Source: an uncultured Bacteroidia bacterium (GTDB taxonomy: Bacteria; Bacteroidota; Bacteroidia; Bacteroidales; Prolixibacteraceae). From it: a stretch of DNA of 64,000 nt. Every line of letters begins with the position of its first letter. Within the stretch, counting starts at the first letter, position 1. The stretch covers positions 1 to 64,000 of the forward strand of contig CAIUAN010000005.1 of assembly GCA_903897145.1 (NCBI GenBank). The letters are read 5' to 3'. Positions 43,966 through 50,250 of the stretch are shown in pieces. The notes under the pieces were generated by a model, which was not told the DNA's origin, ran no database searches, and was given only the letters and a program-made list of their open reading frames with translations. The position numbers and the translations under genes are program-made.

Positions 43966-45441
43966 CTAGTTCTTTAATTTCTCAATCCGTTTAACCACTA
44001 ATTTTGAACTAATCATGGTAATTGGCAATCCGGTACCAGGCACTGTTGAGGCGCCGACATAGAAAACATTTTTAAATTTCTCGTCAAAGTTCTTAGGTCG
44101 GAAGGCCCCAATCTGAAACATTTTGTGGGATAATCCCAAACCGCTACCGCGATGCAAATTAAACTTGCTTTCCCAATCTATTGGAGAGTAGCTAGTTTTA
44201 GAGATGATCTCGGGAACAATATCCTGTCCAATTCGAGCCGAGAAATCAGCTATGATGCTATTCACAATAGCCTCTTTATCATCCCAATCTTTCTTGAATC
44301 TCAGATCGGGTACTGGACAAACGAAAAACAGAGTCTCACAGCCTTCAGGTGCACAATCAGCATTATTACGCGATAAAACATTGACATAATAATAGGGTTT
44401 TTCGAGTGTTCCTGACATCTGAAAGATTTTATTGGCATAATCTTTAAAATTATCACCAAGGTAATAGTTATGATGCTCTATTTGTGGAAGCTTGCACTTC
44501 AATCCAAGATAGATCGTCAATGGTCCCATGGTCCATTCCATCTTATCTAATTTAGCCTCAGAGAACTTGGCTCTTTTAAATATCTTACCTCTAAACGAGG
44601 CAGCATCGCTATTCACCACGATGATATCGCGCTGCCAATTCTTTCCATTTTGATCAACTAAGGCTTCTAATTTCTTACCACTTGCAAGGTAATCGACGAT
44701 TTCAGTATTGTAAGTGATCTTAACGTTTTCGTTCTGAAGCTCCCCAACAATACCCTCAACAATCTTATACATACCACCCTCAACATTATAATATCCATCA
44801 TGTTGGAATTCGGTATAGGATAGTAACGTATAGACAGCTGGAGTATCAAAAGGTGTCCGACCTAAGAAAAATGCCACGAGTGAGATGATTTCACGAGCGT
44901 CATCTGACGAGAAATAGCGACAAACTTGCTGCCAAAAGTTACGAAACAAGATCGGTAAATGTTTCGGATTTACCTTCATTAAGGTTATTAAATAGGAAAA
45001 TACAGAGTTATAATTGTCCTTGATAACGATATCTACCGTATCATCGAACAGTGATTTCCCGTTTTTAAGGTATTTATGCATTTTGACCTCAAAGTCAGGC
45101 TCGACATCTTTAAATTGTTCAGCTAACTTGTGAATGTCTTTGTAAAGTCGATAAGTCTTTGGGCTACGACTGAAGTTTACCGTATAAAGCGGATCAAGTT
45201 CAACATGTTTAAAAGGCAGTTCTATGTTGCAATCTTTTGCGAACTCCTTAAATTCATAGGACATGCTAAAAAAGCTCGGGCCGATATCGAAGGTAAAGCC
45301 ATCCTTTTTCAATTGATTAAGTCGACCTCCAGCCTGACTATTCTTTTCAATAATCTCGACATCATACCCTTTTTTAGCCAATCTTAGTGCGGTAGCAAGA
45401 CCTCCAAGTCCGGCGCCGACAATCAGTACACTTTTTCCCAT
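43966..45441 (-). CDS. crtI: Phytoene desaturase CrtI
   Basis: A 491-residue FAD-dependent enzyme that desaturates phytoene, most likely to lycopene. The N-terminal dinucleotide fold VLIVGAGLGGLATALRLAKKGYDVEIIEKNSQAGGRLNQLKKDGFTFDIGPSFFSM covers about residues 4-60, and the C-terminal CrtI-type signature is NVFYVGASTVPGTGLPITMISSKLV. It is associated with the inner membrane. It is the seventh gene in the carotenoid operon, two bases after the TPR gene. There is no second desaturase-like gene (CrtD) in the window, so 3',4'-desaturation is not accounted for here. Confidence 0.95.
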   Translation of the reverse strand: MGKSVLIVGAGLGGLATALRLAKKGYDVEIIEKNSQAGGRLNQLKKDGFTFDIGPSFFSMSYEFKEFAKDCNIELPFKHVELDPLYTVNFSRSPKTYRLYKDIHKLAEQFKDVEPDFEVKMHKYLKNGKSLFDDTVDIVIKDNYNSVFSYLITLMKVNPKHLPILFRNFWQQVCRYFSSDDAREIISLVAFFLGRTPFDTPAVYTLLSYTEFQHDGYYNVEGGMYKIVEGIVGELQNENVKITYNTEIVDYLASGKKLEALVDQNGKNWQRDIIVVNSDAASFRGKIFKRAKFSEAKLDKMEWTMGPLTIYLGLKCKLPQIEHHNYYLGDNFKDYANKIFQMSGTLEKPYYYVNVLSRNNADCAPEGCETLFFVCPVPDLRFKKDWDDKEAIVNSIIADFSARIGQDIVPEIISKTSYSPIDWESKFNLHRGSGLGLSHKMFQIGAFRPKNFDEKFKNVFYVGASTVPGTGLPITMISSKLVVKRIEKLKN

Positions 45442-45443
45442 TT

Positions 45444-46181
45444 TCAGTGTTTTATTTTTTTTATTAAATTCGGATACAACTTTATCTTAACATAATTGAA
45501 TTGAGGCTCAATCTTTAATATTTCCTCGTAACTATTTTGTGCTTTTTCTAAATAACCTATTGATTCATAAACATTTGCAATTGAAACCAGCAAGCTCAAA
45601 TAATTCCAATCCAAAAGCATTTCATCCCTATTTTGTTCTAATTTAAATCGGGCTTTCGTATAATTCTGAATGGCTTTTAACTTATCTCCACCCATCAGGC
45701 TTGGTGCATGATAATAAACATTTCCCAATTGAACATATCCAAAATAGTCTAACGAATCCAGAGAGACAGCCTCTTTGGCACAAGTTATACTTTTAGAACC
45801 ATATAAAGGAGCTGCAAACATGTTAAGACCAATATGAAAACCATAGAAGGCGGAGCGATAACTGCTAATTTTAGCTGCATACAATTTCTTATTTACAATT
45901 AAATTCAAATTCCCCTCAGCAAGAGAAAGATATTTATTAGCTTCATCTTTTCGATTTTCTCCAATGCACCAACCGATATAACCATATTGATAATTAAGCA
46001 ATTCAAGTTTACTTGAATCATCTTTTGCCCCTATTCCGTGCATCCGTTCAATAACAGACTTCCAATCTCCCATTGAGCTCGCAATAAAAGCTTTGTAGAT
46101 ATCACTCTTTGTGCTAGCAAAACTCGGGCTATAGACAAGCCAAGCAAGCACAAAAACTATCCAATATCGCGACCTTTCCAT
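45444..46181 (-). CDS. Exported TPR-repeat protein in the carotenoid operon
   Basis: A 245-residue protein with a signal peptide (WIVFVLAWLVYSPSFASTKS) and helical repeats. Two are TPR-like: DYFGYVQLGNVYYHAPSLMGGDKLKAIQNYTKARFKLE near 150-190 and LLVSIANVYESIGYLEKAQNSYEEILKIEPQF near 200-235. No catalytic motif is visible. Its start overlaps the glycosyltransferase by 25 bases and its end is two bases before crtI, so it is translated with the pathway. A scaffold or chaperone role for pigment enzymes or for placing the pigment in the envelope is possible, but I do not know a characterised homologue. This is the least explained member of the operon. Confidence 0.75.
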   Translation of the reverse strand: MERSRYWIVFVLAWLVYSPSFASTKSDIYKAFIASSMGDWKSVIERMHGIGAKDDSSKLELLNYQYGYIGWCIGENRKDEANKYLSLAEGNLNLIVNKKLYAAKISSYRSAFYGFHIGLNMFAAPLYGSKSITCAKEAVSLDSLDYFGYVQLGNVYYHAPSLMGGDKLKAIQNYTKARFKLEQNRDEMLLDWNYLSLLVSIANVYESIGYLEKAQNSYEEILKIEPQFNYVKIKLYPNLIKKIKH

Positions 46182-47248
46182 AGAAAACCCGTAAAAAATT
46201 TCGACCTAAATGCGAGAATTAAAATAATCCCAATATTTAATTGCTGTGGAATCAGATAAATAATGTTATTCAAAATATTCTGATTGCTAGCTATTGAAAC
46301 TAGTACTCGCGTAATAATTAATATAACAAGATAAGCCATGGAAAGTTTGATTCCAAATGAAATAAAGATTGGAATAAATCCCCATGTAGTAATAAACCAG
46401 AAAAGCATAGAAACAACAAACGATCCTCCAAAAAATTCAGTCAAATTTTTCGAAAAGCCTTTAATCGAATCTTTGTAACCTTTATACATTCGGCACCGAA
46501 TAGAACCATCCCCTAGCAAGCAGGCTATCGAAACCTTAGCCGATTTATAATAACGAGCAATCGCAATATCTTCCACCTTATTACCCTTCTCTTTCTCATG
46601 CGGGTTTAAAAGCTTATACGTAGCCGAATTAAACAACATAAACTGTCCGTTTGCAGCTGCCAGAGAGGCAAATTTCAATTGTTGCACCAACGGAAGAGGA
46701 AGAAGTGTTAAAAGAATATAGTTCATAATTGGCACGGTAATCCTCTCTCCAATGCCGTGCATCTCTTGTTTCGGAAAAATAGTTAATAGTCCAAGATTTT
46801 TCTTTTGCATCCAATCAACAGCTGAACGAATAAATCCAGGTTTAATCCGAACGTCAGCATCCAAAAACAAGAAGTGATTACCCCGAGCCTGGTGAGATAA
46901 GCTATAACAAGCAAAATTTTTACCCAGCCAACCTTTTGGAAGATTTGTGGATTGAATCAGTTTGATTCGAGAATCATCCTTCGCAAACTGAGCAACGACG
47001 GCTGCAGTTTGATCATCTGAATCATCATCAAGAACTAAGATCTCCATATTAGCATCTTTAGACTCGACAAGATCACTCAAAAGCCGAGCAATATTATCCT
47101 CTTCATTACGCGCAGGGATTAAGATTGAAATCAAAGAATCGGAAGTAGGCAGGCCAATAGGAATATTCGTCCTAAAGATTGCATTAGATAACGCTACGCT
47201 AAATTGAATTAGCGCAAAACCCACTGCGATTAAAGACAAAATCATCAT
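46157..47248 (-). CDS. Glycosyltransferase family 2, probable carotenoid glycosyltransferase
   Basis: A 363-residue membrane protein. One N-terminal helix precedes a GT-A domain: SILIPARNEEDNIARLLSDL, ILVLDDDSDDQTAAVV, the LPKGWLGKNFACYSLSHQARG segment and the DAD metal site in LFLDADVRIKP (about residues 125-135), then three to four C-terminal helices. This layout, including the GW.GK..AC stretch, is that of CrtQ and CruG/CruC-type carotenoid glycosyltransferases and of HpnB-like proteins. Given CruF next to it, transfer of a sugar to a carotenoid hydroxyl is the best guess; the sugar is unknown. It overlaps the acyltransferase by 4 bases and the TPR gene by 25. Confidence 0.82.
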   Translation of the reverse strand: MMILSLIAVGFALIQFSVALSNAIFRTNIPIGLPTSDSLISILIPARNEEDNIARLLSDLVESKDANMEILVLDDDSDDQTAAVVAQFAKDDSRIKLIQSTNLPKGWLGKNFACYSLSHQARGNHFLFLDADVRIKPGFIRSAVDWMQKKNLGLLTIFPKQEMHGIGERITVPIMNYILLTLLPLPLVQQLKFASLAAANGQFMLFNSATYKLLNPHEKEKGNKVEDIAIARYYKSAKVSIACLLGDGSIRCRMYKGYKDSIKGFSKNLTEFFGGSFVVSMLFWFITTWGFIPIFISFGIKLSMAYLVILIITRVLVSIASNQNILNNIIYLIPQQLNIGIILILAFRSKFFTGFLWKGRDIG

Positions 47249-47874
47249 TGGTCTTGGTGCTTTAAGGCATTATTATGAACACATTCATTGAAGAATAAAT
47301 TATAGGCTTGATTGAGTGATTGAGCATCTAATTTAGCCTCAGTATATTCGGATACATACATGTAAATACCGGGCTTTCGGCTAGAAAAATAATCAACAAG
47401 ATTGACCATAAACAGAATCTGAATAGGTGTCTTCGCCGCAGACAGAATTCGCCCTATCCCCCCTTCAAATTGAATCTCCTTTTTATAGGAGGTTTCTATT
47501 TTTCCCTGAGGAAAAAGCAGCACCATATTCTGCTTTTCAGAGAGTATTTCAACCGTATAATTAATCGATTCGATCAAGCTTCTTGAGTTCTTACGAACCG
47601 AAAATCCACCTGTCTGATTAAAAAATGAGAATTTTTTCAATTGTTCTTCGAGCATCATAAAATGGAACTTACGCTTAAGAACGTTCACATTAAAATACAT
47701 GGCAAAAAAACCATCCCACCAACTAAAGTGATTCGCCAATAAAATAACGGGAGCTCCTTTTTCCACGTAATTTTCGATCACTTGCACTTGTCCAAAATGC
47801 CTTTTGATAATCCACCCTGCATAGAACTTAAAAAAGGGATATATCAAAAAATGATGTCGGGCTTTAAGGAGCAT
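47245..47874 (-). CDS. PlsC-type acyltransferase, probable carotenoid glycoside acyltransferase
   Basis: A 209-residue 1-acyl-glycerol-phosphate acyltransferase-fold protein. The catalytic NHFSWWDGFF is the H-x4-D motif, in LLANHFSWWDGFF; FPQGKIE is the substrate motif and TPIQILFMVN the later block. Its size and place fit CruD/CrtO-like enzymes that put a fatty acid on the sugar of carotenoid glycosides, though a general phospholipid role is possible. The track starts at a GTG 17 codons upstream inside cruF; the ATG at 47874 gives MLLKARHHFLIYPFFKFYAGW, the usual N-terminus for such proteins, and a 5-base gap after cruF. Confidence 0.82.
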   Translation of the reverse strand: MLLKARHHFLIYPFFKFYAGWIIKRHFGQVQVIENYVEKGAPVILLANHFSWWDGFFAMYFNVNVLKRKFHFMMLEEQLKKFSFFNQTGGFSVRKNSRSLIESINYTVEILSEKQNMVLLFPQGKIETSYKKEIQFEGGIGRILSAAKTPIQILFMVNLVDYFSSRKPGIYMYVSEYTEAKLDAQSLNQAYNLFFNECVHNNALKHQDQ

Positions 47875-47879
47875 AGATT

Positions 47880-48533
47880 CTATTTGATGAGGATTAGAAT
47901 AGCAACAAAGAAAACAAATTGACACACAAATATCACGGAAGCAACAGAGTTATCAGACTTGATTTTCATCAGTTTTAAAATGGCCTGAAACAGTAATGCA
48001 ATAATAAACCAGTCCAAATAATTTTTAAATGGAACAACACCTTGATCCCATGACCACATTTTTAATAAGGGGGCTACTTGTTCTAAAACCAAATCATAGA
48101 CAACCATCATTCCAGAAGCAACCAAAACGGAAAGCCAATTATCGCCAAAAACCTTTTGAGTTAAGGAGGCACTGCTATAAACAAGCATAACCCAATTGAG
48201 ACCAATCAGCAAGGGCGTGTTTAACACCTTAATCCCCAAAGCTTCACCATAATTATACGATCCAAAAATTTGGTGAGTATTTACACCAATCACTTCAAAT
48301 AAAATACTGAGGAAGAAAATAAGAGTAAAACCCGCTATGACTCGCCCTGAAAACACAGAACTATCGCAAAGCAGCATGGTTAAAAAACTCAAGACTAAAG
48401 CAAATGGGAATAATGCGATAAAAAGAGTTTGGGAAGTTGCTATACCGATTACTCCGACAATGTAAAACAAGATTACTACACCAATTACGTGCAGTTTATA
48501 TTGCTTTAAATAGTTGGAAATAGAATCAATCAT
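47880..48533 (-). CDS. cruF: CruF-type carotenoid 1',2'-hydratase (DUF422)
   Basis: A 217-residue membrane protein with seven to eight helices. It carries the CruF/DUF422 marks: FEVIGVNTHQIFGSYNYGEALGIKVLNTPLLIGLNWVMLVYSS, and further on MMVVYDLVLEQVAPLLKMWSWDQG, with conserved acidic residues in membrane helices. The family adds water across the terminal double bond of acyclic (psi) carotenoid ends, giving a 1'-hydroxyl, and occurs in myxol, bacterioruberin and salinixanthin-type pathways. The next gene downstream is the acyltransferase. It is 11 bases after the cyclase gene. Confidence 0.88.
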   Translation of the reverse strand: MIDSISNYLKQYKLHVIGVVILFYIVGVIGIATSQTLFIALFPFALVLSFLTMLLCDSSVFSGRVIAGFTLIFFLSILFEVIGVNTHQIFGSYNYGEALGIKVLNTPLLIGLNWVMLVYSSASLTQKVFGDNWLSVLVASGMMVVYDLVLEQVAPLLKMWSWDQGVVPFKNYLDWFIIALLFQAILKLMKIKSDNSVASVIFVCQFVFFVAILILIK

Positions 48534-49257: not shown

Positions 49258-50103
49258 TTAAATCATTTTTAGCTTATGAACAATAATTGCCTTGATAAGC
49301 AGAATAGTTTTTCTAAATCCAGAGACACTTACTCGACCAGCCAGAACCTGAGAAGCAGAAGTATTTTTAAGCAAGACGACCAACCGCTGATAGTAATAGT
49401 AAGCGATTAAAACGGCCAGCTGTGAATTGAAGGGCAATTTTAGAATTCCCAAACGAGCAGATTTAAAATCTTGCTCAATATCTTTTATGATCGTCAATTT
49501 CATTTCATCATCAAAAGTTCCTTGTCCCATCTCAGGGAAATATTGACGCTCCAAAAATTCGGTATCACTGCGTAGATCACGCAAAAAATTAACTTTCTGA
49601 AAAGCAGAACCTAAGCGCATTGCTGGATCTTTTAATGACTCAAACATCTGACGATCTCCATTTGTGAATACCGACAAACACATCAATCCGACTACATCGG
49701 CTGATCCATAAATGTAAAGATCGATCTCCGACTTGGTCGTATATTTTGTTTTATGCAAATCAGATCGCATGCTAAATAGGAAAGCCTGAATCAGATCATC
49801 CGAAATGGAATATTTCTTTACGGTTAATTGAAAAGAGTGGAGCACAAGATTTAGGCTCACCCCATTTTTAAATGCTTCGTAGTAATCCGCTTCAAATTTA
49901 TCCAATAATGTCTCCTTGTCGTGCAGCAGAAAGGTGTCGACAATTTCATCGGCAAGTCGAACGAAGCCATAAATACTGTGAATAGCCATCTGAACTTCCT
50001 TGTCAAGAAAGCTAACAGCAATAGAGAAGGAAGTACTGTAGTTGCGAGTAACTAGCTTACTTACCTTGAAAGAAACTTGATCGTAAAGTGGGTCTGTATC
50101 CAT
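49258..50103 (-). CDS. crtB: Phytoene synthase CrtB
   Basis: A 281-residue enzyme joining two geranylgeranyl diphosphates to phytoene. Both aspartate-rich sites are visible: ADEIVD (Asp52, Asp56) and FLRDLRSDTEFLERQYFP (Asp176, Asp180), with GSADVVGLMCL between. The protein start MDTDPLYDQVSFKVSKLVTRNYSTSFS is the usual one, so I use the ATG at 50103; the track ORF begins eight codons earlier at 50127, also an ATG. It is the first gene of the operon crtB-crtYcd-cruF-AT-GT-TPR-crtI. No geranylgeranyl diphosphate synthase is present in the window. Confidence 0.94.
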   Translation of the reverse strand: MDTDPLYDQVSFKVSKLVTRNYSTSFSIAVSFLDKEVQMAIHSIYGFVRLADEIVDTFLLHDKETLLDKFEADYYEAFKNGVSLNLVLHSFQLTVKKYSISDDLIQAFLFSMRSDLHKTKYTTKSEIDLYIYGSADVVGLMCLSVFTNGDRQMFESLKDPAMRLGSAFQKVNFLRDLRSDTEFLERQYFPEMGQGTFDDEMKLTIIKDIEQDFKSARLGILKLPFNSQLAVLIAYYYYQRLVVLLKNTSASQVLAGRVSVSGFRKTILLIKAIIVHKLKMI

Positions 50104-50250
50104 CTCTCTTAAACTAAAAATACACATTTCATGCTTTAATAAAACAATGAAATCGATTAATTGTTTTTCAATAAAAAAACCAATTAAGTCTTAAACTAAA
50201 TTAGGAAATTTAATCGAGAAAAAAGAATCTAGAAAAAGAGCATTTCAAAT

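Follow-up and report, generated by a model that had tools for sequence, protein, structure and literature searches.

An exported TPR-like protein related to HusA lies in Bacteroidales carotenoid operons and persists in relatives without them

The window, the whole 64,000-nucleotide stretch of DNA analysed here, carries a carotenoid gene run in the order crtB, lycopene-cyclase domain, CruF-type hydratase, PlsC, GT2, TPR and crtI (Table 1). Pfam and NCBIfam confirm the pathway roles that the original prediction had given to the neighbours of the TPR gene. The gene itself opens with an ATG inside GT2, with a 25-nt overlap (GT2 end, 46157; TPR start, 46181), and its stop ends at 45444, which leaves a 2-nt gap before crtI begins at 45441; the 245-residue product and its spacing had been correctly described, and the minus strand is added here. 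Within the overlap, the GT2 C terminus (WKGRDIG, then stop) is the +1 frame of the TPR codons MERSRY. The plus strand of 45444–46181 is full of stops. Because the overlap and the gene order recur in many genomes, the arrangement is not due to chance, and conservation in many genomes together with purifying selection rules out a chance open reading frame. The idi and/or crtZ-like hydroxylase genes of some relatives (L076, L129 and L180), located between crtB and the cyclase gene or upstream of the cyclase gene, are missing from the window operon, and the carotenoid product of the window species may therefore have a non-hydroxylated ring.

Table 1. Genes of the carotenoid run in the window, including the TPR gene under study
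Feature	Position	Strand	Evidence
Exported TPR-like protein, 245 aa (subject)	45444..46181	-	ORF call, Pfam, AF2, homologues
crtI-family desaturase, 491 aa	43966..45441	-	TIGR02734, 328.7 bits (cut-off 238)
GT2 glycosyltransferase, 363 aa, CruC/CruG-like	46157..47248	-	PF00535; CruG is best NCBIfam match, sub-threshold
PlsC-type acyltransferase, 226 aa, CruD-like	47245..47925	-	PF01553
CruF-type carotenoid 1',2'-hydratase, 217 aa	47880..48533	-	PF04240; TIGR03460 sub-threshold
CrtYcd-type lycopene cyclase domain protein, 233 aa	48545..49246	-	PF18916, TIGR03462
crtB phytoene synthase (SQS_PSY), 289 aa; first gene of run	49258..50127	-	PF00494

The N terminus of the TPR protein, MERSRYWIVFVLAWLVYSPSFA-STKSD, resembles a Sec signal peptide over approximately residues 1–22, as judged by inspection rather than with a dedicated predictor and in a region of low pLDDT; full-length homologues share this hydrophobic segment. 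Sequence inspection found no lipobox cysteine there, which rules out a lipoprotein. The AF2 model of the protein alone (pLDDT 90.9, pTM 0.85) is all-helical and TPR-like, with 12 helices that span approximately residues 19–244, and the fold is thus predicted even though Pfam TPR matches stay below threshold (best, TPR_2, 21.8 bits against a cut-off of 27). No catalytic family was matched in Pfam or NCBIfam. The signal peptide, the TPR-like repeats and the lack of a catalytic motif noticed at first sight are thus borne out by inspection, by the model and by the family searches. The protein changes fastest within the operon, with 74–75% identity where crtI has 95%, a pace that, judged from sequence, looks more like that of a binding protein than of an enzyme.

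In relatives, the TPR gene repeatedly sits after GT2 and before crtI. An alignment-based scan of GTDB contigs, which is biased towards close relatives, yielded 80 TPR loci, nearly all from Bacteroidota (Draconibacterium, Maribellus, Mariniphaga, Paludibacter, Proteiniphilum, Porphyromonas canoris, Balneicella and many MAGs), with GT2 upstream in 70 of the 80 by hand count. Among 344 genomes of the order Bacteroidales, picked without regard to the TPR locus, the core TPR family (E at most 1e-30) is present in 98, GT2 in 68 and crtB in 93. Both TPR and GT2 occur in 60 genomes and neither in 238; a further 38 have TPR without GT2 and 8 have GT2 without TPR, so neither the gene nor the pathway strictly implies the other. 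The co-occurrence in 60 of 68 GT2-positive genomes is strong (odds ratio 47, Fisher p = 6e-32, a value that overstates independence as related genomes share ancestry). GT2 is the gene immediately upstream of roughly half of the TPR copies (53 of 105), and an overlap with it is seen in 32. For three of the eight GT2-only genomes (G094, G157 and G299), GT2 is fragmented or at or near a contig end, and the missing TPR gene may be an assembly gap. The gene also keeps company with other carotenoid genes: a crtB–idi–TPR–crtI operon without CruF, PlsC or GT2 occurs in G125 (L207), a crtZ–cyclase–TPR arrangement without GT2 in L090 and L180, and a TPR gene divergent from a crtB in L206. These data support the TPR gene as a conserved, translationally coupled gene of Bacteroidales carotenoid operons. 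Separately, a gene of around 440 aa between GT2 and TPR in L114, L121 and L133 reads as a CPD photolyase, and L139 and L141 have a GT2–TPR gap of the same size; the insert suggests a light-stress operon. The crtI of G017 (L043:8711-9684) is split into oppositely oriented pieces, by either an inversion or an assembly error.

The pathway also occurs without the gene. In G059 and G188, GT2 directly adjoins crtI; G149, G163 and G261 each combine PlsC and GT2 with a crtI-family gene, to which G149 and G163 add CruF, and TPR is missing from all five. In G085, the TPR gene is located elsewhere, adjoining a crtB. A phylum-wide Bacteroidota sample contains GT2 (E at most 1e-60) in 28 genomes, of which only three carry the core TPR gene (G000, G576 and G674, each with the GT2 overlap); it was not found in the other 25, and the coupling to GT2 is therefore chiefly a Bacteroidales trait. 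The original prediction that the gene is locked into the operon thus stands for most GT2-bearing Bacteroidales and falls in that the two genes are separable in both directions, and the expected position between GT2 and crtI recurs in many Bacteroidales but not in those 25 genomes. Absence from related clusters, which the prediction itself had weighed against the idea, turned out to be the exception in Bacteroidales and the rule in the remaining phylum.

These exceptions bear on the proposal that the protein is an envelope-side scaffold that organises the GT2 and acyltransferase steps. The GT2 overlap and the high co-occurrence speak for such a scaffold, but we regard it as highly improbable: the TPR gene occurs without GT2 and PlsC in five genomes of the same genus (see below) and in the crtB–idi–TPR–crtI operon, GT2 and PlsC occur without it in G059, G188, G149, G163, G261 and most non-Bacteroidales, and the protein is exported, away from the cytoplasmic nucleotide-sugar and acyl donors. 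A strict GT2/PlsC scaffold is disfavoured by operons in which either part is missing. The broader claim of a role in late glycosylation or acylation likewise finds no support, as the gene is under purifying selection without GT2 or PlsC and is missing from intact CruF–PlsC–GT2 operons.

To follow the gene where the operon is gone, the genus of the window is informative. GT2, a close crtI and TPR are found together in 11 of its 18 genomes, and crtB in 10 of the 11; the exception, G010, is a 64% complete bin. Five others (G001, G003, G006, G008 and G011) have no crtB, GT2 orthologue or close crtI and have lost PlsC, yet in all five the TPR gene is intact and lies between kup and recX/prfB or at the corresponding position. 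Traces of the operon are still visible: G003 and G008 retain CruF just upstream of TPR, G001 has only a C-terminal CruF remnant, and in G011 and G006 the +1 frame over the start of TPR still spells the end of GT2 (WKG or WKE, then stop), a trace that the conserved MER codons impose in part and that is supportive only. TPR, crtB and GT2 are all missing from G012 and G015. The flanking-gene tree mixes operon-less with operon-bearing species (G008 with G007, G011 with G002), although some nodes are weak. As G001, G003 and G008 share a CruF–TPR junction and may descend from one deletion, we count at least three losses of the operon within the genus.

The retained copies are not decaying relics: their reading frames are intact and dN/dS resembles that of pathway-bearing relatives. 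By the Nei–Gojobori method, with ratios taken from printed dN and dS and with dS high and near saturation, dN/dS is 0.117, 0.155 and 0.137 for the three closest operon-less pairs and 0.152, 0.163, 0.176 and 0.188 for the closest operon-bearing pairs. Across the order, 31 of the 344 genomes carry the core TPR gene but lack GT2 and crtB alike (threshold E at most 1e-25), a status that rests in part on a crtB query that missed the divergent SQS_PSY genes of G011 and G001. Its neighbours in these genomes are prmA, uvrB and others (names read from sequence). In a phylogenetic tree built from 140 TPR proteins, genomes lacking GT2 and crtB are scattered (16 parsimony changes, compared with 34 when shuffled) and make up 19 all-minus clades, 14 of them with parent support of 0.85 or more; the root and direction of the tree are uncertain, and some of the changes may be gene relocations. 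A strict carotenoid-only role is disfavoured by these copies.

Some of the operon-less genomes nevertheless hold isoprenoid genes. Elsewhere in their genomes, G011 and G001 have a divergent gene of the crtI family and, after it, an SQS_PSY gene that the crtB query missed (L211:4957-7438 and L212:4694-7310); the synthase of these pairs is closest to the HpnC/HpnD models, far below cut-off. The same CrtI paralogue, of approximately 28% identity, is also present in G003 and G008. Neither the paralogue nor the pair was detected in G006 (91% complete), the sole one of the five that seems free of both. G001, G003, G008 and G011 may make some other isoprenoid pigment. As the paralogue is present in G012, from which TPR is missing, the TPR gene does not track it.

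The same observations give weight to a different explanation, that of a general periplasmic envelope protein, such as an assembly or stress factor that binds proteins or lipids, held in the operon by shared expression or history and with no direct part in pigment. We consider this possible, and it follows close behind the carrier that we favour. It fits the 31 genomes with neither GT2 nor crtB, the 16-member clade of such genomes in which TPR lies mostly beside prmA, the equal purifying selection without the operon (dN/dS 0.12–0.16) and with it (0.15–0.19), and the intact operons that lack TPR. Shared ancestry and drift, however, would not easily suffice to explain why the gene recurs in or beside carotenoid genes in varied arrangements with such strong co-occurrence, and some pathway-poor genomes still hold the divergent CrtI and SQS_PSY pair. 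As the gene is kept intact and under selection in relatives without pigment genes, an independent function, as a carrier or in the envelope, is more likely for the protein than a fixed place in the pigment–sugar machinery.

Structural and profile comparisons lead to HusA (PG_2227; PDB 6bqs and 6crl), a porphyrin and heme carrier of Porphyromonas gingivalis whose TPR-like fold has a hydrophobic concave groove that binds porphyrin without coordinating the iron, and whose homologues have been reported only in Bacteroidetes (PMC6173696). A profile of 25 homologues (A1) matched 6bqs in the PDB (E = 1.8e-7 over 78–179), and HusA is the top natural bacterial protein in a list that otherwise consists mainly of designed or eukaryotic TPRs. 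The TPR family aligned to HusA-like proteins over 160 columns (hhalign, probability 99.2%, E = 1.7e-19); this signal is partly generic to TPRs, with designed TPRs scoring as well or better, and a profile search aimed at isolating the HusA homology found no match for the N-terminal half alone. Foldseek aligned the model to 6bqs with a probability of 1.00 (TM 0.50/0.59). Both proteins have an export signal, an all-helical TPR-like fold and, in the repeat hairpin, a proline followed by a GG(G/D/S)K signature; the window protein is approximately 30 residues longer, with one extra C-terminal TPR. On sequence comparison, the TPR protein is a member of a Bacteroidota superfamily that includes HusA. 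Weaker members of the order search include HusA homologues of around 213 aa, one of which, when tested, matched 6bqs at E = 6e-28, and a TonB-dependent receptor adjoins most of the HusA-like proteins examined. In L185–L196, genes for a membrane kinase-like protein and a LytTR-type response regulator often come after those for the HusA-like protein and receptor; HusA-type loci look to recur across Bacteroidales, far more widely than Porphyromonas.

Kinship with HusA raises the prospect of a porphyrin or heme binder that acts with carotenoids against damage from light and oxygen, for instance by sequestering photosensitising porphyrins in the periplasm. The photolyase-size gene in five loci hints at a light-stress setting, and in G260 (L179:5012-7969) a core-family TPR gene lies directly upstream of a TonB-dependent receptor, a layout midway between that of HusA loci and that of the carotenoid-linked genes. 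This function nonetheless appears improbable. In alignments mapped by hand, F80, W130 and Y164 of the HusA groove are replaced by I73, A124 and H158; no TonB receptor partner of the HusB type adjoins the TPR gene in the carotenoid operon of the window; and the HusA-type proteins form a separate, shorter group. With the groove residues changed, the ligand probably differs from that of HusA, and with A124 and H158 in place of W130 and Y164, ligand binding cannot be read from residue conservation. Both this function and the GT2/PlsC scaffold are less likely than a carrier or an envelope protein.

We tentatively prefer, at somewhat short of an even chance, a periplasmic carrier of lipophilic ligands, the carotenoid glycoside ester among them, that has wider uses in other settings. 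The acylated carotenoid glycoside would be made at the inner membrane, and the soluble TPR protein would take it into its concave helical groove and help to hand it over to the outer membrane. The gene would have been recruited to the glycoside-ester operon of Bacteroidales as a habitual accessory, not a required part, with a ligand range or second role wide enough for many lineages to keep it after loss of the operon. Such a role is plausible because the nearest relative of known function, HusA, is exported and carries flat hydrophobic molecules, a kinship that gives substance to the earlier idea of a carrier placing the pigment; carotenoid binding, movement of pigment between the membranes and a role in carotenoid-poor species are what we infer. 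Against a carrier, the gene is kept without GT2 and crtB, beside prmA or uvrB, and is absent from several intact pathways, a pattern that a general envelope role fits too, and TPR folds often bind peptides.

To our knowledge, the route of carotenoids from the inner to the outer membrane in Gram-negative bacteria is unexplained. A conserved, exported HusA-like protein whose gene is translationally coupled to those for the pigment in dozens of Bacteroidales genomes offers a specific candidate for that transport that can be put to the test, and its survival after repeated operon loss provides natural pathway knock-outs. The same survival warns against calling function from operon position alone.

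In the open-access literature we found no TPR protein in carotenoid clusters, in agreement with the original prediction that no described pathway has such a component. The CruC/CruD modules of Rhodothermus marinus follow the same logic, with glycosylation and then acylation of a 1'-hydroxy carotenoid, and the parts of that account available to us do not mention a TPR protein (PMC5822342); by comparison, the TPR gene is mainly a Bacteroidales addition. A second comparison is with BstC of Methylococcus capsulatus (PDB 7t1s), a sterol-binding TPR-like protein from a sterol synthesis and transport operon (PMC10942540). A narrower form of the carrier, in which the protein is dedicated to transfer of the acylated carotenoid glycoside out of the inner membrane and into the outer, as a carotenoid counterpart of BstC, recruited from the HusA-type superfamily, seems to us rather unlikely. 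The likeness to BstC lies in the fold (Foldseek TM 0.50/0.52) and not in sequence: the TPR protein has no match to the TatT/BstC T-component family up to E = 1 in Pfam and NCBIfam, and no counterparts of the BstC partners BstA and BstB were recognised in the carotenoid operon. Even so, both are TPR-like helical proteins located in the envelope, and their operons also encode the synthesis of an isoprenoid lipid, which in the case of BstC goes to the outer membrane; BstC is the closest working analogy for the TPR protein.
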